A stretch of DNA of 42,505 nucleotides from a virus. The notes below the pieces were generated by a model. That model made no database searches and was not told where the DNA came from. It worked only from the letters and a program-made list of their open reading frames with translations. This document shows, in pieces, positions 1,680 through 33,285 of the stretch (its first letter is position 1; each line of letters begins with the position of its first letter). The DNA lies in IMG/VR virus record IMGVR_UViG_3300034106_001640, positions 1 to 42,505 of that record; one strand, 5' to 3'. Made by a program: the position numbers and the translations under genes.

Positions 1680-2114
1680 ATGTACATTTGCATCACTGAA
1701 GTAGACGCAGTCACCAAAATAGTCTGCACAGCCGAGCCACAGCGCACAGGCCCATCAATGCCTGCTGTCAAGGGTTGGACTCATATCTGGCACGACAGTT
1801 CTACATGGCCCGTATCCACAGCGCCTGATGGCACATACCTGAGAGCACCAAGATACTACGGTACTTGCGATGACGATGCCGACACGACCATTGCTGGTGT
1901 CTTGCAAGTCTTAACTGAGGCTGAGTTCAACGCCGCCAAAGTTGCCGAGCATGAAGCCCGTAAACCTTATCCATCATGGATTGGCTACTTGGACACAATG
2001 ACATGGGCCGCACCTGTTGCAAGACCTGCTGATGCCGTTATGAATGGCGGAAATGTGCGCTACCAATGGGATGAGGCCACAGTTAACTGGATTCCACAGG
2101 CCATCCCAGCATGA
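1680..2114 (+). CDS. Fibre-associated phage protein (possible fibre assembly factor)
   Basis: 144 residues, preceded by a good Shine-Dalgarno (aaggag). The C-terminus has the pattern PYPSW...W.AP...YQWDEATVNW, which recurs at the ends of small proteins next to tail-fibre genes in many aquatic phages. Position directly after two fibres supports a role as a fibre-tip or assembly protein. The stop codon overlaps the next start (ATGA at 2111-2114). No catalytic motif is seen. The function is inferred from context and the tail motif only. Confidence 0.6.
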   Translation: MYICITEVDAVTKIVCTAEPQRTGPSMPAVKGWTHIWHDSSTWPVSTAPDGTYLRAPRYYGTCDDDADTTIAGVLQVLTEAEFNAAKVAEHEARKPYPSWIGYLDTMTWAAPVARPADAVMNGGNVRYQWDEATVNWIPQAIPA

Positions 2115-2932
2115 AAGAGTTTTTCTTCATCTCTGGTTTACCAAGGTCAGGCTCAACCCTGCTCTCGGCTATTCTGCGCCAGAACCCCGAGTTCTACGCG
2201 GACATCTCTTCACCCGTACAAGGCTTGGTGGCATCTACCATTAGTGTCATCACGGGCAGTGAGAGCAACCACTTAATAGATGAAGACAGACGAAAGCAGA
2301 TACTCAAAGATGTCATTGATGCCTATTACAAAGCAGTTACGCCAAGCACAGTGTTTGACACTAGCAGAGGCTGGACATCCAAGACATCGCTTTTAAAAGA
2401 CCTGTACCCACAGACAAAAATTATTTGTTGTGTGCGCGACTTACCTTGGATATTGGACAGTTTTGAACGTATCTCGGCTAAAAACTCACTTTATGGTGCG
2501 GCACTAACAGATGACGAAGCTAGGCAGACAGTCACAACAAGGTGCGATGCCTTGATGGACGTCAAAAAAGAAGGCCAAGTGGTCAAGCCCTACTACTTCT
2601 TAGAAGAAGGTATGCTGTTAAACCCAGACATGATTATGTTGGTAGAGTATGAATCTCTGTGCAAGAAGCCTGAGAGCGTGATGCGGGAACTGTACGGCTT
2701 CATCAACAAGCCATATTACGACCATGACTTCAAGAATGTTGAGTACGATAACGAAGTGTTTGACAAAGCGTTGAACATGAAGAGCCTGCACACAGTACGC
2801 AAAGAAGTAACATGGCAAGAGCGCCCATCCATCCTACCAAAGTCAGTGTGGGAAAAGTACAGCGGTAAAGAGTTCTGGCGCACACCAGCACCAGAGTTTT
2901 CAATGAAGCAACTCTATAAGGTCAAGGGATGA
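2111..2932 (+). CDS. Sulfotransferase family protein
   Basis: 273 residues. The N-terminus FFFISGLPRSGSTLLSAIL is the 5'-phosphosulfate-binding loop of PAPS-dependent sulfotransferases (SGxPRSGSTLL), followed by a strand and a conserved Arg segment (IICCVRDLPWILDSFERI) that fits the 3'-phosphate-binding region. Such enzymes move sulfate from PAPS to hydroxyls or amines. The start overlaps the previous stop (ATGA), and the 3' end overlaps the next gene (2929-2932). The next gene encodes APS kinase and nucleotidyltransferase domains, so donor synthesis and transfer may be encoded together. The acceptor is unknown; host surface sugar or a phage fibre are both possible. Confidence 0.85.
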   Translation: MKEFFFISGLPRSGSTLLSAILRQNPEFYADISSPVQGLVASTISVITGSESNHLIDEDRRKQILKDVIDAYYKAVTPSTVFDTSRGWTSKTSLLKDLYPQTKIICCVRDLPWILDSFERISAKNSLYGAALTDDEARQTVTTRCDALMDVKKEGQVVKPYYFLEEGMLLNPDMIMLVEYESLCKKPESVMRELYGFINKPYYDHDFKNVEYDNEVFDKALNMKSLHTVRKEVTWQERPSILPKSVWEKYSGKEFWRTPAPEFSMKQLYKVKG

Positions 2933-3714
2933 AACGCATATTGATTATGGGCTTGCCCGGCGCTGGTAAAACCTACCTTGCACAACACGTTCTTGAGCAC
3001 TTACAAAGCAACAAAAAAACAGTCATGTGGCTTAACGCTGATGATGTGCGCAAGAAATACAACGATTGGGACTTTTCCCATGAAGGCCGTATTCGCCAAA
3101 GTTTGCGTATGCGTGAGTTGGCTGACAGCTACGATGTGGATTATGTGATCTGCGACTTTGTTGCTCCGCTAGTTGAGATGCGTAACAACTTCAAGGCTGA
3201 CTGGACTGTTTGGGTTGACACCATCAACCAAGGTCGTTTTGAAGACACCAACAAGGTGTTTGTTGCGCCAGAGCAGTATGACTTTAGGATTACAGAGCAG
3301 AACGCTGAGAAATGGGGCGAGTTTATTGCCGCGCACATCTTGGACAACCGCCAGCGCCCTGTCTTTGATTGGCAAAAAGAAACCGTGCAGATGCTTGGCA
3401 GATGGCAACCTTGGCATGAAGGCCACCGTAAGTTGTTTGAAAGAGCACTGGCTAAGACTGGTCAAGTTGTTATTCAGATTAGAGACTGTCAGGGTTGGAA
3501 CGGCTCAAACCCGTTTGCCGCTAATCAGGTAAAAGACTTTATCAAGCGTGATTTAGACCCGTTGTATCAAGGTCAGTATGAGATTCAGCTTGTGCCTAAT
3601 GTGGTGAATATCACCTATGGTCGTGATGTGGGTTACAAGATTGAGCAAGAGTCTTTTGACGATGCCACACACGCTATCTCTGCCACCAAGATACGTAAGC
3701 AAATGGGTGTGTGA
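2929..3714 (+). CDS. Fusion of APS kinase-like P-loop domain and HxxH nucleotidyltransferase domain
   Basis: 261 residues. Residues 1-140 look like adenylylsulfate kinase (CysC): Walker A GLPGAGKT at 8-15, LNADDVRKKYNDWDFSHEGR matching the LDGDNVR...N.DLGFS..DR block, then VICDFVAPLVEMR matching the FISPxxxxR block. Residues about 148-261 form a small nucleotidyltransferase of the HIGH superfamily: GRWQPWHEGH near 163 and the C-terminal ISATKIR motif. ATP sulfurylase belongs to the same superfamily, and eukaryotic PAPS synthases have the same domain order, but this second domain is far shorter and may have another substrate. Start overlaps the sulfotransferase stop by ATGA. Confidence 0.8.
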   Translation: MKRILIMGLPGAGKTYLAQHVLEHLQSNKKTVMWLNADDVRKKYNDWDFSHEGRIRQSLRMRELADSYDVDYVICDFVAPLVEMRNNFKADWTVWVDTINQGRFEDTNKVFVAPEQYDFRITEQNAEKWGEFIAAHILDNRQRPVFDWQKETVQMLGRWQPWHEGHRKLFERALAKTGQVVIQIRDCQGWNGSNPFAANQVKDFIKRDLDPLYQGQYEIQLVPNVVNITYGRDVGYKIEQESFDDATHAISATKIRKQMGV

Positions 3715-3806
3715 TGTGGGACTGGGCTGAAGCATTTATTGCTGCAGCCTGTATAGTGGCCTTTGTTATCTATGGCACGTACGTGATTGCGTGGACTTTG
3801 GTGTAA
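3714..3806 (+). CDS. 30-residue single-span membrane protein
   Basis: ATG at 3714 overlaps the preceding stop (TGATG), and the stop TAA overlaps the A of a following ATG. The peptide starts MWDWAEAFIAAACIVAF and is almost wholly hydrophobic, one transmembrane span. It sits at the head of the lysis block. It may be a small holin-like or accessory membrane protein. No homology is recognised; support is the coupled start, the lack of any other reading frame here and the clear membrane character. Confidence 0.5.
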   Translation: MWDWAEAFIAAACIVAFVIYGTYVIAWTLV

Positions 3807-3809
3807 TGA

Positions 3810-3965
3810 ATGCGTTGGCTGTTGATGCTCTTTTTGGTGTTTCTACCGGGAGCCGCCAGCCAAGATAGGAAGACTGAATACCGCTGTGTGCGGTGGGCTT
3901 GGACGGGTGATGTTTATAACCGCAAAGTTGTTTGCCTACAGTGGGAAAAGGTTGTACGGAAATGA
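3810..3965 (+). CDS. Small secreted or membrane-anchored protein in the lysis block
   Basis: 51 residues. The N-terminus MRWLLMLFLVFLPGAASQ is a signal peptide with a likely cleavage after ...GAAS. The mature part (about 33 residues) is basic and Trp-rich with two Cys (YRCVRWAWTGDVYNRKVVC). Position before the holin and lysozyme would fit a periplasmic spanin-like partner, but there is no lipobox cysteine, so it is not a standard o-spanin. The stop codon TGA (3963-3965) overlaps the next ATG at 3962. Confidence 0.5.
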   Translation: MRWLLMLFLVFLPGAASQDRKTEYRCVRWAWTGDVYNRKVVCLQWEKVVRK

Positions 3966-4456
3966 TTGATCCGATCACGGCGCTAGAAGGATTGCAAACT
4001 GCAATCAGTGTCGTTAAAAAAGCTAGTAAAGTCGCTAGTGATCTGGCAGGTCTAACTCCGTCAATAGCCAAGCTTTTTGATGCAAAGAGCACCGCTACAA
4101 AAGCCATGCTTCATGCCAAGCGTACAGGGGGTAAGTCTAACCTTGGTGCGGCCCTGCAAATTGAGATGGCTTTGGATGAAGCCAAGCGGTTTGAAGAGCA
4201 GTTAAAGATGCTTTTTATGCAAGCTGGGCGCATAGATGTATGGAATGCAACCAAAGCCCGTCAAGCTGAAATGGACAGGGATGATGCCAAAGAGATGGCG
4301 GCCTTACACGCTGAAGAAAAAAGGCGCAAAGAGGCTGAAGCCGAACAGATGCAATGGGCGGCTGCCATTGTTATTATTGTGATGTTTATTGGTGCTGTTG
4401 GTTGGGGTATTAATGAAGTCTCTGATCTGTGTGCTAGATCAAGGTGTGGTCGGTGA
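3962..4456 (+). CDS. Coiled-coil protein with C-terminal transmembrane segment
   Basis: 164 residues using the ATG at 3962, which makes an ATGA overlap with the preceding stop; a longer form from 3932 would overlap the secreted-protein gene by 34 bases and is less likely. Residues 1-60 are amphipathic and Ala/Lys-rich. Residues about 75-130 are charged and predicted coiled coil (AEMDRDDAKEMAALHAEEKR). A membrane span follows at about 132-150 (WAAAIVIIVMFIGAVGWGI), with a short Cys/Arg tail. A lysis or membrane-tethered structural role is inferred from the neighbours. No family is recognised. Confidence 0.6.
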   Translation: MIDPITALEGLQTAISVVKKASKVASDLAGLTPSIAKLFDAKSTATKAMLHAKRTGGKSNLGAALQIEMALDEAKRFEEQLKMLFMQAGRIDVWNATKARQAEMDRDDAKEMAALHAEEKRRKEAEAEQMQWAAAIVIIVMFIGAVGWGINEVSDLCARSRCGR

Positions 4457-4602
4457 ATGAGTACCAAAAGCAATTTGACCTTTTCCTTAAAGTCTTTGTG
4501 CGGTTATGCATTGCATGGTGGGTGCTTGGACTGCTTCGGTTTCTGCCAGATGAGTTGGCGGGAAAGATTGTCGATAAACTACTTGGAATGATTGGACTGT
4601 AA
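4453..4602 (+). CDS. 49-residue membrane protein with GTG start
   Basis: GTG at 4453 overlaps the preceding stop (GTGA), and the TAA stop overlaps the next ATG at 4602. The peptide has one hydrophobic span (VRLCIAWWVLGLLRFLP) and an amphipathic tail. It lies directly before the holin gene. It may be a holin accessory or antiholin. Support is from tight coupling on both sides and gap-free packing. Function unknown. Confidence 0.5.
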   Translation: MNEYQKQFDLFLKVFVRLCIAWWVLGLLRFLPDELAGKIVDKLLGMIGL

Positions 4603-5105
4603 TGCTATCTCTATTCTCAACACTTGGCGGTTTGCTCATATCGGGCTTACCCAAACTACTGGACTTCTTCCAAAACAAGGCAGACCAAAAGCATGAATTG
4701 GCTCTTGCCCGTGTCCAAGTAGAACTACAGCTACAGATGATGGCGCAAGGCTTTGCGGCTCAAGAGCGTATGGAAGAGATCAGAACTGATCAGATCGCCA
4801 TGCAGACAGACGCAGAGATGACTGTTGCCGCCTATGACCACGACAAGAAGATCATGGAAGAAGCCAGCCGCTGGGTGGTCAACTTTGTAGGCACTGTGCG
4901 CCCGATGGTCACTTACATCTTTGTGCTTGAACTATGCGCTATTAATGCTTGGATTGCCTATTACGTCTACAGCAACCCACGGCTTGTACTGAGTATGGAA
5001 GACTTGATTCGTGTTTCTGACATTATCTTCTCCACAGATGAGATGGCCATGCTTGGGGGCATCATTGGTTTCTGGTTTGGCTCACGTAGCTGGAGCAAGA
5101 AATGA
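4602..5105 (+). CDS. Holin, GTA 3TM type (PF11351-like)
   Basis: 167 residues. An N-terminal hydrophobic helix (LFSTLGGLLISGLPKLLDFF) is followed by a long charged helix (about 25-90). Then come two membrane spans, at about 103-125 (RPMVTYIFVLELCAINAWIAYY) and 148-162 (MLGGIIGFWFGSRSWSK). The RPMVTY and GIIGFWFGSR segments match the holin family of gene-transfer agents and many phages. It would permeabilise the inner membrane so that the lysozyme encoded next, overlapping by ATGA (5102-5105), can reach the cell wall. Confidence 0.75.
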   Translation: MLSLFSTLGGLLISGLPKLLDFFQNKADQKHELALARVQVELQLQMMAQGFAAQERMEEIRTDQIAMQTDAEMTVAAYDHDKKIMEEASRWVVNFVGTVRPMVTYIFVLELCAINAWIAYYVYSNPRLVLSMEDLIRVSDIIFSTDEMAMLGGIIGFWFGSRSWSKK

Positions 5106-18280: not shown

Positions 18281-18489
18281 TGCTTCTTCCACTTCTTGAT
18301 GGAGATGAACTGCGGCACCTCGATAGGTTGGTCAAGTGCTTCAATGCCTCTGGCAGACCGCGACCTAAAGTCATACCATTTTTTGACGTAGGCAGGATCC
18401 TCGGATGGAGGAACCCAGTTATAAACACGGCGCCATCTTTCGGTGACGCAAGTTGATGAAGGTGTATACACAAAATCTTCGGTTGTCAT
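18277..18489 (-). CDS. Hypothetical small basic protein
   Basis: 70 residues. ATG 18489 overlaps the preceding stop (ATGA) and its own stop overlaps the next ATG. It is basic and aromatic (CVTERWRRVYNWVPPSEDP, VKKWYDFRSRSARGIEALD), compatible with nucleic-acid contact, but no family is recognised. It is kept because the coupling on both sides leaves no other candidate frame here. Confidence 0.6.
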   Translation of the reverse strand: MTTEDFVYTPSSTCVTERWRRVYNWVPPSEDPAYVKKWYDFRSRSARGIEALDQPIEVPQFISIKKWKKQ

Positions 18490-19193
18490 AAGTCTTGTCC
18501 TTTAGTTTGTAGCCACATGCGGAGGGTTGACATGCCTCCATCTATTAAAACATGATTAGGGAATGCTTGGTACTTGTGGTACAGCGGGTGGTTGATGAAG
18601 TTCTTCATCAAAAGGTATGCATTAGCTTGTGGCGGTGACATACCCATGGCTCTGTCGGTGTCAATACATTTTACCTCGTACCGATCAGAGAATTCTTTGG
18701 TGATGGCGTGGACCTGATCACCCAGCAACCCAATGATGACTACCTTAGGCAATGTCTTGCCAGATGCGCCATACGTTGGATTGTGCTTTTCAATCTTAAA
18801 CTCATGCTCAAGCTCTTTAACAGCAACTTGCAGGCTTTCACGAAGCCCCAGAATGAATCGTTGTGTAATAGTATTCACCAACTGCTCAACGAGATCAACT
18901 GGTGCATCGATTCTAGGCATCACCAGTGGCGCTGGAGGCATTATTTCCACAGGTGTGGTAGTTTCCACCACCTTTCGCTTTGGCACATCCTGCATGGCAC
19001 GTACCTTAAGCTCTTTGATTAAGTCAGGCACTGCAGAATGACTTTGCATAGTACGACGACGATCAGGTGACAGTACAATTTGCGCTTGCCTAAGCGACGC
19101 AATTGGGCTGTAAGTGCCTGAGTTGTAATACTCCACAGCGGTCATGATAACTAGATCACGTTCACGTTTTGTCCAGCGAATTTTAGGTAACAT
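18486..19193 (-). CDS. Unknown protein with N-terminal helical segment and C-terminal Rossmann-like domain
   Basis: 235 residues from ATG 19193, chosen because GAAAGG lies 7-8 bases upstream; a TTG at 19208 is weaker. Residues 1-70 are basic and could be a helix-turn-helix (IRWTKRERDLVIMTAVEYYN, SLRQAQIVLSPDRRR). Residues about 145-220 look like a compact alpha/beta domain (KVVIIGLLGDQVHAITKEF, YEVKCIDTDRA, HVLIDGGMSTLRMWLQ), reminiscent of DUF2325-type domains. It could be a DNA-binding regulator. It begins a subunit of the operon with its own predicted promoter and leader. Confidence 0.55.
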   Translation of the reverse strand: MLPKIRWTKRERDLVIMTAVEYYNSGTYSPIASLRQAQIVLSPDRRRTMQSHSAVPDLIKELKVRAMQDVPKRKVVETTTPVEIMPPAPLVMPRIDAPVDLVEQLVNTITQRFILGLRESLQVAVKELEHEFKIEKHNPTYGASGKTLPKVVIIGLLGDQVHAITKEFSDRYEVKCIDTDRAMGMSPPQANAYLLMKNFINHPLYHKYQAFPNHVLIDGGMSTLRMWLQTKGQDL

Positions 19194-19196
19194 TTC

Positions 19197-19218
19197 AATT
19201 CCTTTCAATAGTCAATTT
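19197..19218 (-). promoter_or_regulatory. Leader motif TTGACTATTGAAAGG before the 18486-19193 gene
   Basis: Minus strand AAATTGACTATTGAAAGGAATT; GAAAGG is the ribosome binding site for ATG 19193. This copy best matches the consensus of the four. Confidence 0.5.
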
Positions 19219-19257: not shown

Positions 19258-19432
19258 CGTCTTTTGTACTTATTACATCTTGCCAAACCATGGCCGAAGC
19301 CATTTCCACTTTTAGAGCGGCCAATGCCGTCAGTATGTCCTCCATTTGATAACCGTCACGAATAAGTTCAAAAACAAATATTCTAAGTTCTTTTTGAACA
19401 GCGAATGATAAATCTACACGTTCGATAGCCAT
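19250..19432 (-). CDS. Hypothetical 60-residue protein
   Basis: ATG 19432 lies inside the end of the ThyA-family gene (19-base overlap). The peptide is helical and amphipathic (AVQKELRIFVFELIRDGYQM, EDILTALAALKVEMASAM). No family is recognised. It is the last gene before the predicted extended -10 promoter. Confidence 0.6.
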   Translation of the reverse strand: MAIERVDLSFAVQKELRIFVFELIRDGYQMEDILTALAALKVEMASAMVWQDVISTKDVI

Positions 19433-20196
19433 TTTGCAAACTCAAAAGTAGGGTTGATGGATTTGCCTGCCAAAAGGTTGGCCTCGTACCGGTTGATACG
19501 TGGGGGCTTGTCTTCAACTGGCAAATGCAAATTAGCGTTAATGATGTCATTGAACATGGTCAATCGAGACTCATAGACGTGGAAAGAACCTGCAGATATT
19601 GTCAATGTTCCCATCTCAGCGCCAACCAAGTTAGCCACAATTTCCTGCAGAAAGCTGAAAGTTGGCAAGTCATTTGCCATGCCCCAAAGAATATCTTGGC
19701 TACGCATGATAGCTCTGGCGTTCAATCTGCCATTCCTGATTCTGAACTCAATGGCCAGCGTGCATGGAACATCCTTTGCCTCTATATCCATATGGTCTAT
19801 GTCAGTGCCATACATTGGAATCACAGCACGGCGGGACATTGGATCTTGCGTAAGCAACTTTGCAATATGCAGAGCGCCGTGTTTGCCAAACCAATAACTG
19901 CCGTAGTTGCTATTCAACTTGCCGTTGGCTACGATCTTGCCCCACTGCGCAGCGTGATCAGCAATGCTAAGATCATACGGGTCAGCCTTGATGTACCAAG
20001 CCATTTCGCGCTTAAGGTACTTCACATTGAAGTTACGACCTTTGAATGAGTTGAACCTTACAAAGGGGTTGACCGTGTAAGTAAAGTTTTCAATCTCAAG
20101 GCATTTTTCGCCGCGTGGACTTGTCCAAGTGCCATGCTTTTGCAGCACGTTGTAAAGATTGATGAGCTCAGGCTCATTGCGAATCAGCATTTCCAT
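19414..20196 (-). CDS. Thymidylate synthase family enzyme, likely dCMP (hydroxy)methylase
   Basis: 260 residues; GGAAG is placed well before ATG 20196. ThyA features: NSNYGSYWF (95-103), SRRAVIP with Arg122/Arg123, DVPCTLAIEF with nucleophile Cys145, MRSQD with Arg165 and Asp168, and SFHVYE with His206 and Tyr208. At the site of E. coli ThyA Asn177 (GLPFNIASY) the protein has Asp176 (GMANDLPTF). That Asn recognises uracil; Asp is typical of dCMP hydroxymethylase and shifts E. coli thymidylate synthase toward dCMP. I infer a folate-dependent dCMP methylase or hydroxymethylase for making a modified cytosine. It overlaps the kinase gene upstream. Confidence 0.8.
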   Translation of the reverse strand: MEMLIRNEPELINLYNVLQKHGTWTSPRGEKCLEIENFTYTVNPFVRFNSFKGRNFNVKYLKREMAWYIKADPYDLSIADHAAQWGKIVANGKLNSNYGSYWFGKHGALHIAKLLTQDPMSRRAVIPMYGTDIDHMDIEAKDVPCTLAIEFRIRNGRLNARAIMRSQDILWGMANDLPTFSFLQEIVANLVGAEMGTLTISAGSFHVYESRLTMFNDIINANLHLPVEDKPPRINRYEANLLAGKSINPTFEFAKWLSNV

Positions 20197-21115
20197 AATC
20201 AGCTTCCGTAATTAAATAGGGTTGGTCGGGGTAATGTTGCATGTGATACAAAGGGGGTGGTAATTTAATTACAGGCACTTCATTGTTTAATGCCCATGTG
20301 TAGGCATTGTTGCCAAGGGCGTAAATACGTTTTGGCTTCAACTGTTTGATGAAGCTTGAATCCATAGGTGTGCCTTGGTAAGTTTGAGTGTTAACCCAGT
20401 ACAAACCAGTTTCAGGTACATTCTCACGCTCCAAGGTTTCAGCCAGCATTCTGCTAGGGCCATCATTATCCAAGAAGTTAATGAAAGGCACCACGGCTGC
20501 GGTGGACTTAACATTTGTGCGAGGCCCCTTGTCGCAAAGCATTAGTGTATTGCCTTCAACAAAGGCGCCGCCACCGGATGATTTGTTAGTCATTGTCTTG
20601 GTTGCAAGCTTAATGAACAACTCTTCTATATCATCTTTGGTATAGTCGTAGGTGATGACTGGCAGTGAGGTATCCATAGGCAGTGAGGAATAGCCTTCAT
20701 ACACTTGTTCCAATTGTTTGATATTGTCTAAGTACTCATCCTCAATGCGATCTTTGAATGTTTGCATACACACTTCAAAATCAGGTTGACAATGAATAAC
20801 CACAACGCCTCGTGCCAAGGCTGCACGCTCTAACATTCTACGGCGCGGCATATCAATGCGGTTATCGCCTTTACGATACACGCTGCCATAGATTGGCTCA
20901 GACAGCCATGACCTATCCATGATGACGTGGTCATCATAGGTCAACGCCGCTGTCATGCCGCGAAAATACGTACGGCAAAGGTCCTCGGTATTCATACCAC
21001 GATAAGGACCATGCTTTACGACATGGGTCATCTTGTCCTTTTGCAATCGTTGTCGCAAGGTCTCTGACAGGGTAGTCTTTCCCCCGCCATCAGCCCCTTC
21101 TAGAATTACGATCAT
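20174..21115 (-). CDS. Deoxynucleoside monophosphate kinase fused to a UDG-like C-terminal domain
   Basis: 313 residues. Residues 1-175 are a thymidylate-kinase-like P-loop domain: Walker A EGADGGGKTT (6-15), HVIMDRSWLSEPIYG with the DR signature, and RRRMLERAALARG in the lid region. Residues about 180-313 form a second domain: PFINFLDNDGPSRMLAETLE, YWVNTQTYQGTP, LKPKRIYALGNNAYTWALN. This order resembles the uracil-DNA glycosylase fold, but the usual catalytic and HPS motifs are not clear. The kinase would phosphorylate the product of the ThyA-family neighbour. The 3' end overlaps that gene; the start overlaps the glycosyltransferase stop. Confidence 0.72.
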   Translation of the reverse strand: MIVILEGADGGGKTTLSETLRQRLQKDKMTHVVKHGPYRGMNTEDLCRTYFRGMTAALTYDDHVIMDRSWLSEPIYGSVYRKGDNRIDMPRRRMLERAALARGVVVIHCQPDFEVCMQTFKDRIEDEYLDNIKQLEQVYEGYSSLPMDTSLPVITYDYTKDDIEELFIKLATKTMTNKSSGGGAFVEGNTLMLCDKGPRTNVKSTAAVVPFINFLDNDGPSRMLAETLERENVPETGLYWVNTQTYQGTPMDSSFIKQLKPKRIYALGNNAYTWALNNEVPVIKLPPPLYHMQHYPDQPYLITEADYGNADSQ

Positions 21116-22001
21116 TTAAGATACCCTCAAGTTTTGATAGTGTGTCTTCAAGCGACGCGGTGCGCAAGTAAGTTGCCTGCTGCGCTGCAGTCAGTTGAAG
21201 TTGGTAATCATCCATGCTTTCTAATTCATGGAGTGTGTAATCATACGATGGATCAATGACGCCAAGCTCTTTGGGGTCGCCACCAAGAACGCAGCCGGCA
21301 TGCGCTGCGTGTAAATAACGAATACGCCACCAGCCGCAGCCTGCATGCTTATACGTAGGGCAAAGAACGCCTTTATAACTGCCATACTGCCAAACAACAT
21401 CGGACTCAAGGATTCTAGGCTGACCTAGTGCCTTGCCACCTACACTATGTATAGGCCATGCAAGGTGCTGTGCCGTAGCCCAATCATGCGCCTCCTTTGA
21501 AAGGGATGCGTTGTACCACTCGGTTTTGCGACGATCCCAAGACATTTGATGCACAGCAGGCATTTCATACAGCGGGCTTGGATCCCATGCAATAATGTCT
21601 TCTACTGGCAAGCCCATGGCCTTGGTGCTGCCCCATGGAAATAATGGCGCAATCCATGTATGCTCACACAACGACTCGGGTGCAATCTTACTTTCCCATG
21701 ATGGTAGGATCTTTTGGAAAGCCCAATCATCAAGGCAAACATAAGCATCAAAGCGGCTTTCTAAGGCCCACAAGGCACCCTCGGGATCCAAAGCATTGTG
21801 ATCCAAGGGGTATAGGTACACAAACACTTTGTCGTAACGGGTGAGGTCTTCACCTGATGTAACGGCACGATGATCAACATGATGCCCCATACGGCCAAAG
21901 GCTGATGCCATCAATTCAGGAATGGAAACAAACTTGGTTGAACTGGCACGCTGCGGATGGTTGGTATGCGTCTCTGTAACGCCGGTAATTAAGATATTCA
22001 T
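21090..22001 (-). CDS. Predicted glycosyltransferase (GT-B-like)
   Basis: 303 residues; ATG 22001 overlaps the upstream stop (ATGA). The N-terminal strand MNILITGVTE and the FGRMGHHVDHRAV segment look like a GT-B N-terminal half. YDKVFVYLYPLDHNALDPEG and DAYVCLDDWAFQKIL follow. The C-terminal part (GVLCPTYKHAGCGWWRIRYL, HAAHAGCVLGGDPKELG, then a long helix) matches the acceptor/donor layout of GT-B enzymes with the R..A...G.V..G.P pattern. With the dCMP-type ThyA homologue and the kinase encoded next to it, a DNA-base glycosyltransferase is the most likely role, but the sugar and acceptor are not shown by sequence. Confidence 0.6.
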   Translation of the reverse strand: MNILITGVTETHTNHPQRASSTKFVSIPELMASAFGRMGHHVDHRAVTSGEDLTRYDKVFVYLYPLDHNALDPEGALWALESRFDAYVCLDDWAFQKILPSWESKIAPESLCEHTWIAPLFPWGSTKAMGLPVEDIIAWDPSPLYEMPAVHQMSWDRRKTEWYNASLSKEAHDWATAQHLAWPIHSVGGKALGQPRILESDVVWQYGSYKGVLCPTYKHAGCGWWRIRYLHAAHAGCVLGGDPKELGVIDPSYDYTLHELESMDDYQLQLTAAQQATYLRTASLEDTLSKLEGILNDRNSRRG

Positions 22002-25219: not shown

Positions 25220-25308
25220 AGCGGCCTCCAAACGTATAAGTCCATCAGCACAACCATGAGTCCCAACAGGAACACAACCCTTTCAATCTTTTCCCAACGT
25301 GTCATCAT
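25216..25308 (-). CDS. 30-residue membrane protein with perfect Shine-Dalgarno
   Basis: The ATG at 25308 overlaps the DNA polymerase stop (ATGA), with AGGAGG 4 bases upstream. The peptide begins MMTRWEKIERVVFLLGLMVV and continues VLMDLYVWRPL, a single membrane span with a basic N-terminus. Its stop overlaps the next start (ATGA). Coupling at both ends and the best ribosome binding site in the operon support a real gene. Role unknown. Confidence 0.6.
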   Translation of the reverse strand: MMTRWEKIERVVFLLGLMVVLMDLYVWRPL

Positions 25309-27194
25309 TTGACCTCCTGATACGTATTGCCGATTTTGTAATCACTGACCATGGGCACATCCATTGTTATTGCATTGCACATGGACCATGTTAAGCATTC
25401 AGCCTCGCGGACCACATGCTCTTCAGGAGCTGAGATAACCAACTCATCATGCACACTAAGCAAAAGCCTACTGCCTTGCCGCTTGCTCTGGTACAACAGC
25501 ATGGCCGCCTTGGCCTGATCAGCCGCTGAGCCTTGAATCAAAAGGTTAACCCCTTTGTAATCAAATTCACGCAGACGGCCATTGATGATCTTAGGCGGTT
25601 CCATCTTGATGAGACGCCCGCCAATGGTTTTAAGCGGTTGGCCTAATTTATACCTTGTCCGCATGGTGGATTGCATCGTCTTGAGGCCCGGAGCCACCGC
25701 GGTGGTATATGCATCCATCAATGTCTTTGCCATTTCATAATCCACCTCAAGCATTTCACTGATTTTCTTAGGGCCTGCACCGTAGAGAATAGCAAATGAT
25801 ACGCCTTTTGAGTAAGTCCTTGACACCTCACGGCCGCTGGCCTCAGTCATCATCTTGGCTGCGTAGGTATGCAAGTCAGCACGAGCATCGGCTTGGTATT
25901 GCTTCATCAAATCACCGCCTTCAAAGTGCGCAAAGATACGCAACTCTTGAGCGTTGAAGTCACATGCAATTAGCTTATGCCCTTCATCGGCTAGGATGAA
26001 GCTGCGGATGAGCGGGAGGGGTGCAACTTCCAAAGCAGGGGGGAGGGTAACTTTCGGGTAACGGACAGGCGCATTTTGAAAGTTGGGTGTTGAGGAGAGT
26101 CGGCCGGTTCGTGTACCCCCACGTTCACCTCGTACACTGTTCCAGTTTGTGTAGATTCGACCTGTAGATGCAGAAGCTTGTAACCAGGGCTCAATGAAAG
26201 TTGACAAACATGTTGATAGGTTGGCTCTATATCTGAGGACATCTTTTAACTCCGCGTGTGTGATTAGTTCTTCAAATGTTTCTTTATCGGCTCTAGGCTG
26301 GCCCTTATCCGTGGTAGGCCACCCATTATCTTTCAACCAGTATTCTGTGGGATAAATACTATTGACCAGCTCTTTATCGCTGTCAAGATTCAAATCAGGA
26401 GAACCTAACAATGCGCGAACCCAAACATTACACTTTTCAATATCTATTACTGCTTGCTCTTTTGCTTTTTGCAAACCGACTCGATCAACCCTTACGCCTA
26501 ACCGGGAGTTTTCAAGTAACATTGGAATCAAAGCCACCTCACGGTGGTAAGCCTCCTGCTGTGCGGGTAAAACCTGCTCGATGAGATACTCATAAAGCTT
26601 GCTTGTAAGCCGCACGTCAGCTGCGGCGTATTTGCCAACTAATTCCACGGGGCCGCGGGAGATGTATGCACCCCATGTAGACTTTTTACGACGTGCCTCA
26701 TCAACATTAGCAAGAATCCATTCTTTCAGCTCATCCCTTTCATTAGGCGTGTCCAAGCTCCAAGTGACAACCAAATCTTTTAAAGATAAAGACTGCACGT
26801 GAGGATCGTGGAGAAAAGCAAGAATAAGAGTATCGTGTATGACTGTGGTGTTCTGTGGGATGGGTACATCCAAATGAGTTTCAGCAACATCAAGGTCAAA
26901 CATAGCGTTATGAAAACAGATGTCGCGTCCGCTATCATAGATCATCTCCATCATTGCTTTAACAGCCGCTTGTGTTGTGTTATTGCCTGTAAGGTGGCCA
27001 AAGGCGTGGTAGCCGTCTGGGTATTCACCTTCAGGGTCGTAGACGGCCAAGCCAACTGGCACTGGAGGATACTCCGGCCGTGGGCCAATAGCCATTGTTT
27101 CAAAATCAAGATAGACAGGTTTCATAATAAAGGTGGGGGTACTAACCGCTCGTCTGCAAGCTTTCAAAAAGCCTTTGCACGGCTTTCCCCCCAT
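25305..27194 (-). CDS. Family A DNA polymerase with 3'-5' exonuclease domain
   Basis: 629 residues from ATG 27194, which has AAGGA nearby; an ATG at 27125 would give 606 residues and also keeps all domains. Exonuclease: YLDFE (Asp30, Glu32), NAMFD, and KYAAAD. Polymerase: RTGRLSS, motif A ACDFNAQELR (Asp412), motif B RTYSKGVSFAILYG (Arg459, Lys463, Phe467, Tyr471), motif C SVHDELV (His582, Asp583). Phe467 is the Pol I-like residue where T7 has Tyr. This is a replicative T7-size enzyme. Its stop overlaps the start of the 30-residue membrane gene. Confidence 0.95.
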   Translation of the reverse strand: MGGKPCKGFLKACRRAVSTPTFIMKPVYLDFETMAIGPRPEYPPVPVGLAVYDPEGEYPDGYHAFGHLTGNNTTQAAVKAMMEMIYDSGRDICFHNAMFDLDVAETHLDVPIPQNTTVIHDTLILAFLHDPHVQSLSLKDLVVTWSLDTPNERDELKEWILANVDEARRKKSTWGAYISRGPVELVGKYAAADVRLTSKLYEYLIEQVLPAQQEAYHREVALIPMLLENSRLGVRVDRVGLQKAKEQAVIDIEKCNVWVRALLGSPDLNLDSDKELVNSIYPTEYWLKDNGWPTTDKGQPRADKETFEELITHAELKDVLRYRANLSTCLSTFIEPWLQASASTGRIYTNWNSVRGERGGTRTGRLSSTPNFQNAPVRYPKVTLPPALEVAPLPLIRSFILADEGHKLIACDFNAQELRIFAHFEGGDLMKQYQADARADLHTYAAKMMTEASGREVSRTYSKGVSFAILYGAGPKKISEMLEVDYEMAKTLMDAYTTAVAPGLKTMQSTMRTRYKLGQPLKTIGGRLIKMEPPKIINGRLREFDYKGVNLLIQGSAADQAKAAMLLYQSKRQGSRLLLSVHDELVISAPEEHVVREAECLTWSMCNAITMDVPMVSDYKIGNTYQEVK

Positions 27195-27967: not shown

Positions 27968-28333
27968 TTATTTACGACGAACGGTAAGTTCCCAGACCTC
28001 AGATGCTTCGGTCCCGGGGATGGCCTCACCAGCTTCCCACCGCTCACGGAAGGCTGTTGAGGAAAGCCGCTTATGCAGCAATTCAAATTGGCTTGTCTGT
28101 GCGACATAGCCGTAAAAAGCTTGCCAATCTTTGATGGCAGGGTGCTTGGTCATTTTCATAGAGCATGATGCTTTATCAGATGCAGCTTGGCTAATGCCTG
28201 CATCAGACATAAGTGCCATGATGTCACCTTCAAGGCGACCAAGTTTGGCCGTCATGTCTTTGATTTTAGATGAGAGCTCTTCACGCTCGTTCTTGGTTGC
28301 GACGTAATCGTCGATCAATTCTTTAATGTTCAT
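27968..28333 (-). CDS. Conserved phage protein with coiled-coil N-terminus
   Basis: 121 residues from ATG 28333 (ATGA with the upstream stop). Residues 1-50 are coiled coil (NEREELSSKIKDMTAKLGRL). The C-terminal part has DWQAFYGYVAQTSQFELLHK and PGTEASEVWELTVRRK, a pattern seen in a widespread phage family of unknown function near replication genes. Likely a replication accessory. Confidence 0.65.
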   Translation of the reverse strand: MNIKELIDDYVATKNEREELSSKIKDMTAKLGRLEGDIMALMSDAGISQAASDKASCSMKMTKHPAIKDWQAFYGYVAQTSQFELLHKRLSSTAFRERWEAGEAIPGTEASEVWELTVRRK

Positions 28334-28737
28334 GACTTTGCTTTCTGCTGTTCTGTTTGTATGATGGCCAACATCATGGCCTCGGGGGCTTGCCAACCCA
28401 TAGGTTTGATAACGTCGTATTGTGAGCCGCGCAACGATCTGATGTAGTCATTAGCTGGTTCTTTGTTCATGTTGGCTTCGTGCACCACATTAAAAAGCTG
28501 GTCAAACGGCAACCCCATAGCATGTGCACAGCCCATGGTAACGTAGGTAAGATCAACCAAAGCATCAGCGGCGTCGACAAGGCTATTCTCCTCGCAAGCA
28601 CGAAGGTATTCACTAAGCTCTTCCATGATGAAGCGAGCAAAGTAACTGGCTTGCTCGGATGTAAGCAAGGTAGGTGTGGTGGAGACTGGCAGACCCATCT
28701 TGCGACGGAAGGCCAGTACTTTTTCTGAATTAGTCAT
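28330..28737 (-). CDS. MazG-like (PRA-PH-type) nucleotide pyrophosphohydrolase
   Basis: 135 residues from ATG 28737, overlapping the upstream stop by 8 bases. Metal-binding motif EELSEYLRACEE with DAADALVDLTYV (E-x2-E ... D-x3-D), then ANMNKEP and VIKPMGWQAPE, match the all-alpha NTP pyrophosphatase superfamily. Phage members split noncanonical or canonical dNTPs. Given the dCMP-type ThyA homologue on the same strand, it may lower the dCTP pool so that modified dCTP is used, but its substrate is not shown by sequence. Confidence 0.75.
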   Translation of the reverse strand: MTNSEKVLAFRRKMGLPVSTTPTLLTSEQASYFARFIMEELSEYLRACEENSLVDAADALVDLTYVTMGCAHAMGLPFDQLFNVVHEANMNKEPANDYIRSLRGSQYDVIKPMGWQAPEAMMLAIIQTEQQKAKS

Positions 28738-29182
28738 ATGCATAATCATTTGCTGTTGTAGTACGTGCGGCGCATTCTTTGTACATAAGTGATTCAAATG
28801 CATTGCGGTTAGCTGGGTTAAGTGTTGCTGTAATGTCTTTGCCATCCATCAACACAACGTAATCAAAGCCAAGGCGCTTTACGCTATACAACACAACAAT
28901 GTCGCGTTCAATGTCGCCATCACCCCACTCGGCTTGCCAATTGTCTAAGCCATAGTGATCTAAAGAGTATTCGTATTCATCTGGCATGGTAGGTTTTGGT
29001 GTTGTGTAGATGACGTATGCACTAAGATGGCCAAGAGCGCGTGCTGCTGCCATGCGCAATTCTAATTGCTCTTTGTATGATGCCAAGGCTGTAGCATCAG
29101 CAGGTACATTAAGAACAAAAGCCTCAATGCCTTGGTAAATTTCCTGCAGCTCGGTAAGAGGGATGCTTACAGTTTTAGTCAT
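28730..29182 (-). CDS. Hypothetical 150-residue protein
   Basis: ATG 29182 overlaps the upstream stop (ATGA). The sequence is MTKTVSIPLTELQEIYQGIE with a long helix (ALASYKEQLELRMAAARALG), followed by acidic beta segments (DDWQAEWGDG-like and DIVVLYSVKRLGFDYVVL). No family recognised. Confidence 0.55.
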   Translation of the reverse strand: MTKTVSIPLTELQEIYQGIEAFVLNVPADATALASYKEQLELRMAAARALGHLSAYVIYTTPKPTMPDEYEYSLDHYGLDNWQAEWGDGDIERDIVVLYSVKRLGFDYVVLMDGKDITATLNPANRNAFESLMYKECAARTTTANDYAYD

Positions 29183-29788: not shown

Positions 29789-30751
29789 TTATGACAATGC
29801 CAAAAGGGCGTCAACCGTTTGTTGCTTAACATTGACACCGCCGCCGAACCATGCGTTGGCCAACCGAGCATCGCCGGTGCGAGCTGTTTCCCAATCCATC
29901 AGCTGAGTCACGGCATTCAAAGCGCCCCATGCCGTGCCTTTGGCAGACTCTAACTCAGCGCCGATGCCTGCACCTTCGAAGAGAGCCAATGCTCTGGCTG
30001 CTGCGCGTGAGGGATTCTTTTCATCGCCGCCAAGGATCTTGGTGAAGATGGCCTGTGCCTGTGTAGAGCCAACCTTGATGGAAGCCAAGAACTTGGCCGT
30101 TTGCTCGAACACACGGAATGTTTCGTTGCTGTTGGCCAACTCGGCCTTGATGGCCTCGGGGCGGAAGATGGAGTTATGACGAACGCTGACGTTGGCCTTG
30201 CCTTTTTGCTGTGCCAACTGCAAAGTGTTATTACATACAACACGGACGCTGGTAAGGCGTGCCTGAGTGGCCAGAGAGCCATCAGCGGAGCTGGCCAATA
30301 AGAGATATTGGTTAACCTTATCGCCTGCAATGTTGAACTCGCCATCCATCTTGGCGAGGGCCCAGTAATGAGCGCCATTACGCAGGACGCCGGCTGTTTC
30401 AAGGTGAGCAATATTGCCAACCATGTCGCGGAAGAATTCGAGGACCTCGATCGGCTGCACGATCTTGTACTGGCTAGACACCAAGCCGAGTGGCAAGTTG
30501 CTGTCTGTGCGGTACATTACTTTCTTGCCGTCGTAAGGCAAGGACTGCGCCTTGAAGCCGTTCCACACGCTGGCTGGAGGAGTGAACTGGACATCGGCGG
30601 TAGCCAATTGGAAGTCAAGGCCAGATTCCTCGGCCCATGTTTCAATGGTTGAGTCAGCAGTTAACTGCTGGCCAAGACCGTGCCAAGGAGTTTCACCAAC
30701 GTAAGCCATTGCTGCCTTGCCGGAGATTGTGTTTGCGATTAAGTGTGCCAT
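29789..30751 (-). CDS. DUF932 (phage/plasmid-like TIGR03299) protein
   Basis: 320 residues; AAAGG before ATG 30751. The N-terminus MAYVGETPWHGLGQQLTADS, the middle MYRTDSNLPLGLVSSQYKIV and VRVVCNNTLQLAQQ are hallmarks of DUF932. Such proteins are found on phages and plasmids and are thought to work in DNA maintenance or replication, though the activity is unknown. It is the first gene of the minus-strand operon, directly downstream of the divergent control region, so it is probably expressed early and strongly. Confidence 0.85.
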   Translation of the reverse strand: MAHLIANTISGKAAMAYVGETPWHGLGQQLTADSTIETWAEESGLDFQLATADVQFTPPASVWNGFKAQSLPYDGKKVMYRTDSNLPLGLVSSQYKIVQPIEVLEFFRDMVGNIAHLETAGVLRNGAHYWALAKMDGEFNIAGDKVNQYLLLASSADGSLATQARLTSVRVVCNNTLQLAQQKGKANVSVRHNSIFRPEAIKAELANSNETFRVFEQTAKFLASIKVGSTQAQAIFTKILGGDEKNPSRAAARALALFEGAGIGAELESAKGTAWGALNAVTQLMDWETARTGDARLANAWFGGGVNVKQQTVDALLALS

Positions 30752-31061: not shown

Positions 31062-31238
31062 ATGACTATTGACATTACACATGGCCACCATTGGCCGAGC
31101 ATATTCGCACCTGATATAGCCTGCACACAGGCAAAAAGAAAGGACCTAGAGGTAAGTCTAGATCCTTATAAAGTAGCAACTTGCAAAGAAAAGCACTATG
31201 TCATCAGGATTCGCATCACAAACAACACAGCCGAGTGA
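31062..31238 (+). CDS. Doubtful 58-residue leader reading frame
   Basis: An ATG at 31062 opens MTIDITHGHHWPSIFAPDIA and runs to 31238, overlapping the first 41 bases of the primase-helicase gene in another frame. There is no clear Shine-Dalgarno and no recognised family. It may be a leader peptide, or the start region of the primase mRNA may simply be open by chance. Confidence 0.2.
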   Translation: MTIDITHGHHWPSIFAPDIACTQAKRKDLEVSLDPYKVATCKEKHYVIRIRITNNTAE

Positions 31239-33285
31239 ATTATACACAAACTTCCTATCGGCAAGGGCATTTGAGGATACAGATATACAGGCCTTGGGCC
31301 TATCTCTCCTTGACCCCGAGGAATGTTACCAATTACTAGGCCACACTCGTGAGTGGAGCATCAAAATCCCGTATTTTGATATGCAGGGCCAAGAAACCGG
31401 CTTTAATCGGGTCAGGATACTGACACCGAAGGGCAAAATGAAGTATTCTCAGGCTCGAGCCAGCGGAAGCCACGTATACTTTCCACCAACTATCGGTTGG
31501 AAGCAGGTCGCGCAGGATGTAGATGTTCCCATCATCATCACCGAGGGTGAGTTTAAGACATGGGCTATCACCAAGCAAATCAGCAAGGACACCCTTAACT
31601 ACGCCACCTTAGGTTTAGCCGGTGTTACAAGTTGGACTGACAAATCTGGTTTACACCTGCACAAAGACCTAATGAAGATCATATGGCAGCGTAAGACCAG
31701 CTTCGCTGAGAAGCACCGCAAGGTTTACATTGTCTTTGATTATGATGGGGCCGGTGAGGATGGTGAGCCTAATGAACAGGTTGGCATGGCAGAAACAAAG
31801 CTTGCTGTCACGCTCCGTGGGCTAGGGGCTGAGGTACACCTTTGCCGTGTCGGCAGGTTCGGTGCTGGTAAGGGTAGCAAATACGCTATTGATGACCATC
31901 TACAAGCCGGCGGCAATCTTGGCCAAGTCCTCACCAGCACCAGCACGGTGATGAACGGCATCGACACCCTCGAGACCAAGCTTTATGAGTTCAAAACTCA
32001 GTACGCACTTATCAACGGCGATGTGATCAGGCTCAAAGACGGCTTAATTCTTGGTTGGAACAAGGCACGTATTGACGCCGCGCAGGATTACTTCGTGCAA
32101 GTCACGCAACGGCCAAACGGTGGCACCAGCAGCAAGACCATCTATATCTTGGATGCCTATAAGGACTGGGCAAAGCGGTGTGATCTGGATGGCGTAGGCA
32201 TGTATCCCGAGTATCAAGGCCTCACTATCACACCAACTAGGCATTACAACCTGTTCAAGGACTGGTCCAATGAGCCCGTTGTGGGTGATCCTACACCTTA
32301 CCTTGAGTTTTGTGAGTACTTTTTTAGAGATGAGCCTGCTTTTGCCGACTACTGGCATAACTGGGTGGCCAATGTTGTCCAATTCCCATGGAGAAGGAAC
32401 TACACCACACCGCAGTTCGCATCCTCCATTGAGGGCATCGGCAAATCAGCTATCGCCGAGTTTATAGCCGAGATGCTAGGCATTGGGGACGGTGGGCCTG
32501 CAGCTATCATCGGGCCTGATGAGCTGTTTGGCAACTTCAACGGTATGTTGAAGGGTAAGATCTTCATAGTCGTGAATGAACCATCGTCTGATCGTGACGA
32601 CCACTCGGCGAAGCTTAAGAACTACATCACATCTAATGAGCTCACTATCAACAATAAGTATGGCGCCCAGTACGCCATCACTAACTACATCAACTTCGTA
32701 TTCACGACAAATAAGAGCTACGTCACGCACATGGGTGATACCGCAAGGCGTGAAGCTATCTACAGTCCTGCTAGCTTGTCCAACCAAGAAACACATCCCA
32801 AGGTCATGGCTTTGATGAAGTGGGCCAAGGCGCAGCAGGGCTTTGGCATCATGCTTAACTGGTACATGAATCGTGATATATCGAGCTTTGATTGCAAACA
32901 GGCAGCACCAAAGACTCAGTATCGTGAGACTGCGATCCAGCTTTCCAAGACTCCACTTGAAGCTTTTGCATTGGAACTTAAAGCTTGGGTCAATGATCAC
33001 CTTGATGGCATGGCTGCTTTTACAGCGCCGCAGCTGCAGATTCTGTGTGAGCGTTGGGGCCACGACAGCAAGGCCAAGGCGCAATACATACGTAAAGCTC
33101 TGCAACCCCAAGGGACAATTGATCCTAGTAAGCTCATCAAAGTGCATGGTAAGCCTTCACGATATACCACGTTTATCACGTCTGAGGTAACATTAGCTCG
33201 AAGGGTCGAGCCGACTTGGTCACAGGTTGTCACGAGAACAGAGGACGCAATGCAGCGTGAATTGGAGCAAAATGGTAGCTTCTAG
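31198..33285 (+). CDS. DNA primase-helicase (DUF3854 toprim-like plus D5-type SF3 helicase)
   Basis: 695 residues. The N-terminal part has IIITEGEFKTWAITK, GLAGVTSWT and VYIVFDYDGAGED, the toprim-like core of DUF3854. The C-terminal part is an SF3/D5-type ATPase: Walker A EGIGKSA at 412-418, Walker B IFIVVNE ending at Glu461, sensor FTTNKS, and DTARREAIY. It would unwind DNA and probably prime lagging-strand synthesis with the family A polymerase. It is transcribed away from the polymerase operon and is flanked on both sides by GTTAC boxes. Confidence 0.88.
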   Translation: MSSGFASQTTQPSELYTNFLSARAFEDTDIQALGLSLLDPEECYQLLGHTREWSIKIPYFDMQGQETGFNRVRILTPKGKMKYSQARASGSHVYFPPTIGWKQVAQDVDVPIIITEGEFKTWAITKQISKDTLNYATLGLAGVTSWTDKSGLHLHKDLMKIIWQRKTSFAEKHRKVYIVFDYDGAGEDGEPNEQVGMAETKLAVTLRGLGAEVHLCRVGRFGAGKGSKYAIDDHLQAGGNLGQVLTSTSTVMNGIDTLETKLYEFKTQYALINGDVIRLKDGLILGWNKARIDAAQDYFVQVTQRPNGGTSSKTIYILDAYKDWAKRCDLDGVGMYPEYQGLTITPTRHYNLFKDWSNEPVVGDPTPYLEFCEYFFRDEPAFADYWHNWVANVVQFPWRRNYTTPQFASSIEGIGKSAIAEFIAEMLGIGDGGPAAIIGPDELFGNFNGMLKGKIFIVVNEPSSDRDDHSAKLKNYITSNELTINNKYGAQYAITNYINFVFTTNKSYVTHMGDTARREAIYSPASLSNQETHPKVMALMKWAKAQQGFGIMLNWYMNRDISSFDCKQAAPKTQYRETAIQLSKTPLEAFALELKAWVNDHLDGMAAFTAPQLQILCERWGHDSKAKAQYIRKALQPQGTIDPSKLIKVHGKPSRYTTFITSEVTLARRVEPTWSQVVTRTEDAMQRELEQNGSF

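Follow-up and report, generated by a model that had tools for sequence, protein, structure and literature searches.

A conserved three-gene phage cassette predicted to make glycosylated 5-hydroxymethylcytosine, with a candidate base glycosyltransferase outside the T4 families

Examination of the IMG/VR virus record IMGVR_UViG_3300034106_001640, whose 42,505 bases are the window analysed here, points to a cassette of three minus-strand genes (19414-22001) that probably makes glycosylated 5-hydroxymethylcytosine (hmC) in the phage genome, by means of a glycosyltransferase from a family outside those of bacteriophage T4. The three genes code for a protein with a predicted GT-B glycosyltransferase fold, a thymidylate-kinase-like fusion protein and a homologue of the thymidylate synthase ThyA. 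The predicted fold, the residues, the phylogeny and the linkage of the genes form the firm basis of this proposal, and everything beyond them we infer.

Organization and conservation of the cassette

The description of this region as three consecutive and overlapping minus-strand genes, made in a first-pass annotation from the bare sequence, was confirmed. The open reading frames encode a 303-amino acid putative glycosyltransferase of the family phrog_14998 (21090-22001), a 313-amino acid protein combining a thymidylate-kinase-like domain with an extra C-terminal domain (20174-21115) and a 260-amino acid ThyA homologue of the deoxycytidine monophosphate (dCMP) 5-hydroxymethylase type (19414-20196). 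The first overlaps the second by 26 bases, and the second the third by 23. Scans of viral contigs, one with each cassette protein, found 134 loci on 82 different IMG/VR contigs; in 74 of these contigs all three genes are present with their order unchanged, and the eight others stop inside the cassette at a contig end. The frames are therefore not chance, and the cassette genes are conserved. In alignments of 30 representatives per protein, identity to the window ranged from 59 to 93%, with minima of 62% for the glycosyltransferase, 59% for the kinase fusion and 60% for the ThyA homologue.

A ThyA homologue of the dCMP hydroxymethylase type

The 260-amino acid protein matches the thymidylate synthase family PF00303 of Pfam (5e-18). 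When a profile of its family was searched against the PDB, the top matches were a cytidine monophosphate (CMP) hydroxymethylase (5.2e-21) and the T4 dCMP hydroxymethylase (1.5e-16), the thymidylate synthases matched ranking below, and comparison with T4 gp42 gave an hhalign probability of 98.5% (E-value 1.9e-15). The nucleophile Cys145 (codon 19762-19764), the RSQD signature (residues 165-168) and Asp176 (codon 19669-19671), all encoded on the minus strand, are invariant in 30/30 representatives. Asp176 occupies the place of Asn177 of thymidylate synthases, in an alignment column that holds Asp in T4 gp42 and Asn in true thymidylate synthases, and Thr146 that of their His147. Positions 177 and 147 were top-ranked by MetaGPA for telling the ThyA of modified-cytosine contigs from others, according to an excerpt of that study (PMC8670742).

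In a 24-row tree, which excludes four entries of thymidylate synthases split by an intron or by frame (T4 td and Aes508, two each), the window ThyA family, the T4-type hydroxymethylases and the ThyA of the phages Xp15 and Acinetobacter MD-2021a form a clade of 11 rows with support 98/94, the branching order within it being unsettled. Xp15 and MD-2021a also carry the nearest relatives among the named phages matched (about 38% identity). Matches to the window ThyA, whatever their type, were obtained in 1,847 of 50,697 phage records (E-value up to 1e-5). The Pfam match, Asp176, the profile ranking and the clade shared with gp42 all uphold the early assignment to the dCMP type of the ThyA family. 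Residues and phylogeny support a dCMP-hydroxymethylase-type ThyA, with 5-hydroxymethyl-dCMP as its predicted product.

Two other products have to be weighed. The ThyA homologue might make 5-methyl-dCMP, or deoxythymidine monophosphate (dTMP), in which case the cassette would serve ordinary nucleotide metabolism and stand beside an unrelated glycosyltransferase. In the MetaGPA excerpt, the substitution Asn177Asp alone can turn a thymidylate synthase into a 5-methyl-dCMP maker (PMC8670742), so Asp176 by itself is no proof of hydroxymethylation, and homologous genes of Stenotrophomonas phage AXL3 are interpreted as a dTMP pathway in the available portion of the AXL3 report (PMC7504290). Both profile and tree, however, put the window protein with the hydroxymethylases and away from the thymidylate synthases; the C-terminal MAV carried by both thymidylate synthases of the alignment is missing from it, and a base-directed glycosyltransferase needs a hydroxyl acceptor. 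We regard this explanation as highly improbable, the least credible of those considered.

The second alternative is a 5-hydroxy-dCMP synthase as in RB69 and Mosigvirus, the sugar then being attached directly to the cytosine 5-hydroxyl. It is favoured by Providencia phage PSTRCR_127, which has a relative of the window glycosyltransferase together with an Asp-type ThyA grouping with RB69p048, and by a thymidylate-kinase-like gene near the ThyA homologue of RB69. The RB69-type rows nevertheless branch far off (RB69p048 and PSTRCR127_b), and both read RSQN, whereas the window family (RSQD) and T4 gp42 share RS-x-D and the window protein falls in a clade with the T4-type hydroxymethylases. The RSQD signature and the separate branch place the window protein outside the RB69-type 5-hydroxy-dCMP synthases, and a pathway of that kind seems to us very unlikely.

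The kinase fusion

The 313-amino acid protein matches PF02223 better than the curated cut-off (1.5e-08) and carries the P-loop GADGGGKT in a thymidylate-kinase-like domain formed by residues 1 to about 175. Its AlphaFold2 model (predicted local distance difference test, pLDDT, 82.3; predicted template modelling score, pTM, 0.82) superposes on YorR (3kb2) with a Z-score of 17.8 and a root-mean-square deviation (rmsd) of 3.7 Å over 167 aligned residues, and on thymidylate kinases with Z-scores of 14-15.6, which is consistent with a P-loop kinase of thymidylate-kinase-like fold. On the strength of its operon, we propose that its substrate is 5-hydroxymethyl-dCMP.

The C-terminal domain (residues about 185-300; 20216-20563, minus strand) possibly belongs to the uracil-DNA-glycosylase superfamily. 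In a scan at E-values up to 10, PF03167 weakly matches eight of 30 family members, the best match (0.0099) falling short of the curated cut-off, and profile positions 32-125 are common to the matches of three members; the window protein itself has no PF03167 match in Pfam. A superfamily relationship is plausible from these sequence matches, and no function is claimed for the domain. Homologues covering most of the fusion occur in AXL3 and two other phages. With the PF02223 match, the structural similarity to YorR and the residual C-terminal domain, the initial description of a thymidylate-kinase-like protein with an extra domain holds.

The predicted GT-B glycosyltransferase

The AlphaFold2 model of the 303-amino acid protein (pLDDT 88.1, pTM 0.88) consists over its whole length of two Rossmann-like domains, and the GT-B fold is a prediction with good support. 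Comparison with known base glycosyltransferases, the check proposed for the GT-B-like reading of this protein, gave full-length matches to the T4 beta-glucosyltransferase (BGT, 1qkj; Z 17.2, rmsd 4.0, 280 residues aligned) and to the T4 alpha-glucosyltransferase (AGT; Z 15.1, rmsd 4.3, 274 aligned). The selenosugar synthase SenB gave Z 17.0 and rmsd 3.6 over 272 aligned residues.

The protein matches phrog_14998, a family listed as being of unknown function (4.7e-20), as do 13/13 aligned members of the glycosyltransferase family, 10 of which come from other phages. In window numbering, the residues Asp92, Glu199, Trp225-Arg226, Arg228 and Glu245 do not vary among the 13, which also keep the (G)WWRxR motif (21318-21335, minus strand). 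Asp92 (codon 21726-21728, minus strand), a candidate base, follows a strand much as does Asp100, the catalytic base of BGT; the equivalence is one of motif position. Similarly, Arg226 may lie at the place of BGT Arg269, a motif-level guess.

Neither Pfam nor NCBIfam gave a match to the window protein, and the PDB gave none for two profiles of the family. A Pfam scan of 30 members gave six weak families, none of them a glycosyltransferase, and the 13 aligned members gave weak unrelated families. Against T4 BGT the hhalign probability was 0.8% and 6.3%, and the profile comparison with T4 AGT gave no convincing match, both with single-sequence templates of limited power. The hhalign values and the lack of a Pfam match speak against membership in the T4 beta-glucosyltransferase family PF09198. 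The first-pass annotation had called the cassette proteins not recognisably T4-like in sequence; this stands for the glycosyltransferase and fails for the ThyA homologue, in view of its similarity to gp42.

Distribution of the glycosyltransferase family

Carriers of phrog_14998 are found in Straboviridae, Kyanoviridae, Gordonia and actinobacterial phages, in addition to 81 IMG/VR contigs of the window clade. For comparison, the analyst picked 11 representative phages bearing the glycosyltransferase from 42 records and added T4 and AXL3 as controls; those of the 11 that belong to the Straboviridae have a common ancestry and are not independent of one another. Searches with T4 BGT and AGT matched the T4 control, and neither AXL3 nor any of the 11 carriers. 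A PF00303 gene is present in 10 of them, and each of these 10 has an Asp-type copy, that of PSTRCR_127 being of the RB69 type; one further PSTRCR_127 ThyA gave no match and lies outside the ThyA alignment. When the transferases of DSL-LC01 and C48C1 were used as queries, 40 further loci were fetched, the flanks of which contain 11 ThyA genes, all Asp-type. The glycosyltransferase family is thus linked to cytosine-type ThyA genes outside the window clade as well. Together with the readings of the ThyA homologue, the kinase and the GT-B protein, the Asp-type ThyA in 10 of 11 carriers supports the original suggestion of a modified and probably glycosylated cytosine.

In DSL-LC01-like phages, a second, diverged match to the glycosyltransferase family directly follows the first or a mutase gene, and it may be a transferase for a second sugar. 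A scan of genome contigs with the glycosyltransferase matched 22 stretches; since none of them codes for a relative, no host was assigned.

It is possible that hmC is made and that the glycosyltransferase acts elsewhere, its acceptor being a glycan of the host surface, a protein or the free nucleotide, so that the DNA carries plain hmC. SenB and many other GT-B enzymes with non-DNA acceptors match the model roughly as closely as BGT does (for SenB, Z 17.0 against 17.2), and Foldseek even ranks SenB first (2e-5), with AGT at 1.2e-3 and BGT absent among the best 50 listed. One of the 11 carriers, C48C1, lacks any PF00303 gene, so the family does not depend strictly on a base made by ThyA. Two findings stand against such an off-target role. 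In 74 of the 82 contigs the glycosyltransferase gene is part of an overlapping operon with the ThyA and kinase genes, the remaining eight contigs being truncated, and an Asp-type ThyA is present in 10 of the 11 distant carriers. On balance we judge it unlikely that the enzyme works away from DNA.

Besides the SenB and Foldseek results and the C48C1 genome, other observations count against glycosylated hmC as the product of the cassette. The residue equivalences with BGT are read from motif positions only, and in a motif-level comparison the WWRxR motif has no obvious counterpart of the donor-ribose Glu, the C-terminal-domain residue of GT-B enzymes that corresponds to Glu311 of AGT and binds the donor ribose, in an excerpt of the relevant report (PMC6024577). 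The PRA-PH domain invoked below for dCMP supply is widespread in cells (14/14 control genomes). In addition, the accessible AXL3 text takes the same ThyA and kinase for a dTMP pathway (PMC7504290), and no phrog_14998 glycosyltransferase appears for AXL3 among the matches listed in the phage search, so that the restriction resistance of this phage supports the ThyA/kinase half of the proposal alone.

A putative pathway to glycosylated hmC

Glycosylated hmC, which we prefer as the product, could be reached in five steps. First, a PRA-PH/MazG-like nucleotide pyrophosphohydrolase encoded at 28330-28845 on the minus strand (PF01503, 2.8e-17; phrog_671, 5.7e-25) would convert deoxycytidine triphosphate (dCTP) to dCMP. 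This family is present in 20/20 related records. In T4, gp56 is the dCTPase, and the PRA-PH/MazG-like enzyme could play the same role, depleting dCTP and feeding dCMP. As far as the MetaGPA excerpt goes, PRA-PH co-occurs with modified-cytosine-type ThyA genes (PMC8670742).

Second, judging from its residues and phylogeny, the ThyA homologue would hydroxymethylate dCMP with methylene-tetrahydrofolate. Third, the kinase fusion, the fold of which is predicted, may convert hydroxymethyl-dCMP to the diphosphate; host nucleoside-diphosphate kinase completes hydroxymethyl-dCTP. Fourth, the phage family A DNA polymerase (25305-27194, minus strand; PF00476, 3.4e-56) would incorporate the modified nucleotide into DNA. 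Finally, the predicted fold and the gene linkage suggest that the 303-amino acid GT-B enzyme uses a nucleotide-sugar, probably of host origin, as donor and transfers its sugar to the hydroxymethyl group of the base. DNA bearing such a sugar would be shielded from restriction enzymes, and possibly also from nucleases of CRISPR (clustered regularly interspaced short palindromic repeats) systems.

Comparison with known systems

T4 makes glucosyl-hmC with the dCMP hydroxymethylase gp42, the dCTPase gp56, a deoxynucleoside monophosphate kinase and alpha- and beta-glucosyltransferases. The window cassette resembles it in pathway logic, in its homologous hydroxymethylase and in the predicted GT-B fold. 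Unlike T4, the window has a glycosyltransferase with no detectable sequence relation to BGT or AGT, a kinase that by domain description is thymidylate-kinase-like with an extra domain, a PRA-PH domain (by annotation, not gp56) and a family A polymerase, in a record of 42.5 kb.

A second group of related cassettes is found in Xp15 and Acinetobacter phage MD-2021a, in which ThyA is paired with a NodU-type carbamoyltransferase; a 5hmC carbamoyltransferase was demonstrated by MetaGPA in such an arrangement, as stated in the excerpt at hand (PMC8670742). The ThyA clade is common to these cassettes and to that of the window, and PRA-PH co-occurs in both. The Xp15 carbamoyltransferase had a match in 0/20 window-type records, which may be fragments, and in the single control (1/1). 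Given the lack of a match in all 20 records, the glycosyltransferase appears to stand where Xp15 and MD-2021a have the carbamoyltransferase.

The arabinosyl-cytosine pathway of RB69 and Mosigvirus, as outlined in extracts of two reports (PMC6024577, PMC13390438), likewise includes a ThyA homologue, a thymidylate-kinase-like gene and a GT-B candidate base glycosyltransferase. It differs from that of the window in that the ThyA belongs to another subfamily (RSQN instead of RSQD), named 5-hydroxy-dCMP synthase in the Mosigvirus extract (PMC13390438).

AXL3 shares with the window a full-length kinase fusion beside an Asp-type ThyA, a nucleoside triphosphate pyrophosphohydrolase, a helicase, a Cas4-like nuclease and a DNA polymerase I. 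It differs by a methyltransferase gene beside the pyrophosphohydrolase and by the presence of a dCMP deaminase. The passages seen of its description report that 35 of 37 restriction enzymes failed to cut AXL3 DNA, every one of the 35 having G/C in its site, and that the only ones to cut it were two A/T-only enzymes (PMC7504290). Finally, Shewanella phage Thanatos combines a ThyA-type gene with glycosyltransferase candidates and carries a deoxypentose on cytosine, according to part of its report (PMC12838424).

Which sugar is transferred

A gene for UDP-galactopyranose mutase (UDP, uridine diphosphate) adjoins the phrog_14998 glycosyltransferase in 5 of the 11 carriers, hinting at galactofuranose as the sugar in these five. 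Among the 40 further loci it stands beside the glycosyltransferase in 24, i.e. in 17 of 19 C48C1-like and 7 of 21 DSL-like loci; the other two C48C1-like loci stop within the glycosyltransferase gene, and some DSL-like loci are also cut short. The patchy occurrence around the DSL-LC01-type enzyme weakens the mutase as an obligate partner. It is a rare gene in phages (87 of 50,697 records, E-value up to 1e-10). The mutase of C48C1 is annotated merely as hypothetical.

In Lactobacillus phage ATCCB, three consecutive genes at 2037-5092 of the stretch examined code for an Asp-type ThyA, a homologue of T4 BGT (31% identity, 5e-49) and a mutase, and this row is a candidate operon for galactofuranosyl-cytosine DNA. 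No sequence match links the BGT homologue of ATCCB to phrog_14998. Because the mutase recurs beside candidate base glycosyltransferases of two families, galactofuranose is suggested as a DNA sugar. The literature searched gave no account of phage DNA modification that involves galactofuranose or UDP-galactopyranose mutase. In one phage report, as far as its available text goes, the mutase of Agrobacterium phage Atu_ph04 is ascribed to cell-wall galactofuranose (PMC6630229). In the genome of Atu_ph04 the mutase lies far from a ThyA that shows the RB69-type signature, RSQN plus Asp, and the Rhizobium phages AF3, LG08 and RL2RES figure in the match lists of both mutase and ThyA.

The mutase was the sole sugar-nucleotide gene sought, and it was found in 0/20 records (the window and 19 related ones, which may be fragments); galactofuranose was not adopted as the window's sugar on this ground. 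The window enzyme may, most simply, use one of the common host UDP-sugars. One may also imagine that phrog_14998 consists of base furanosyltransferases putting galactofuranose or another furanose on hydroxymethylcytosine, the window phage using host UDP-galactofuranose, an idea that we hold to be doubtful.

Other genes of the window

Between the glycosyltransferase gene and an SNF2-type helicase lies a 95-amino acid frame, which overlaps the former at its upstream end. Beyond the helicase come a frame resembling VRR nucleases (with a score short of the Pfam cut-off), a PD-(D/E)XK nuclease and the family A polymerase. Downstream of the cassette, 18486-19208 (minus strand) encodes a 240-amino acid protein that recurs in many related loci and has no convincing family match. 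The plus-strand gene at 31198-33285 codes for a primase-like protein with DUF3854 and DUF5906, on the strand opposite to the polymerase and helicase genes. The gene at 29789-30751 (minus strand) encodes a DUF932/TIGR03299 phage-plasmid protein, and in ctUtU524 the same family is annotated upstream of the match to the kinase fusion.

Conclusions

A function is proposed here for phrog_14998, an unannotated phage family, and the cassette points to a way in which small phages modify their bases and which current annotation overlooks. The mutase gene that recurs beside candidate base glycosyltransferases makes a specific sugar testable in isolated phages, namely Aeromonas phages 25 and Aes508, Erwinia phage FBB1 and Lactobacillus phage ATCCB. 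If the proposal is true, phrog_14998 would add a family of base glycosyltransferases that could be used to label hmC, and phages carrying it would be expected to resist restriction and CRISPR.

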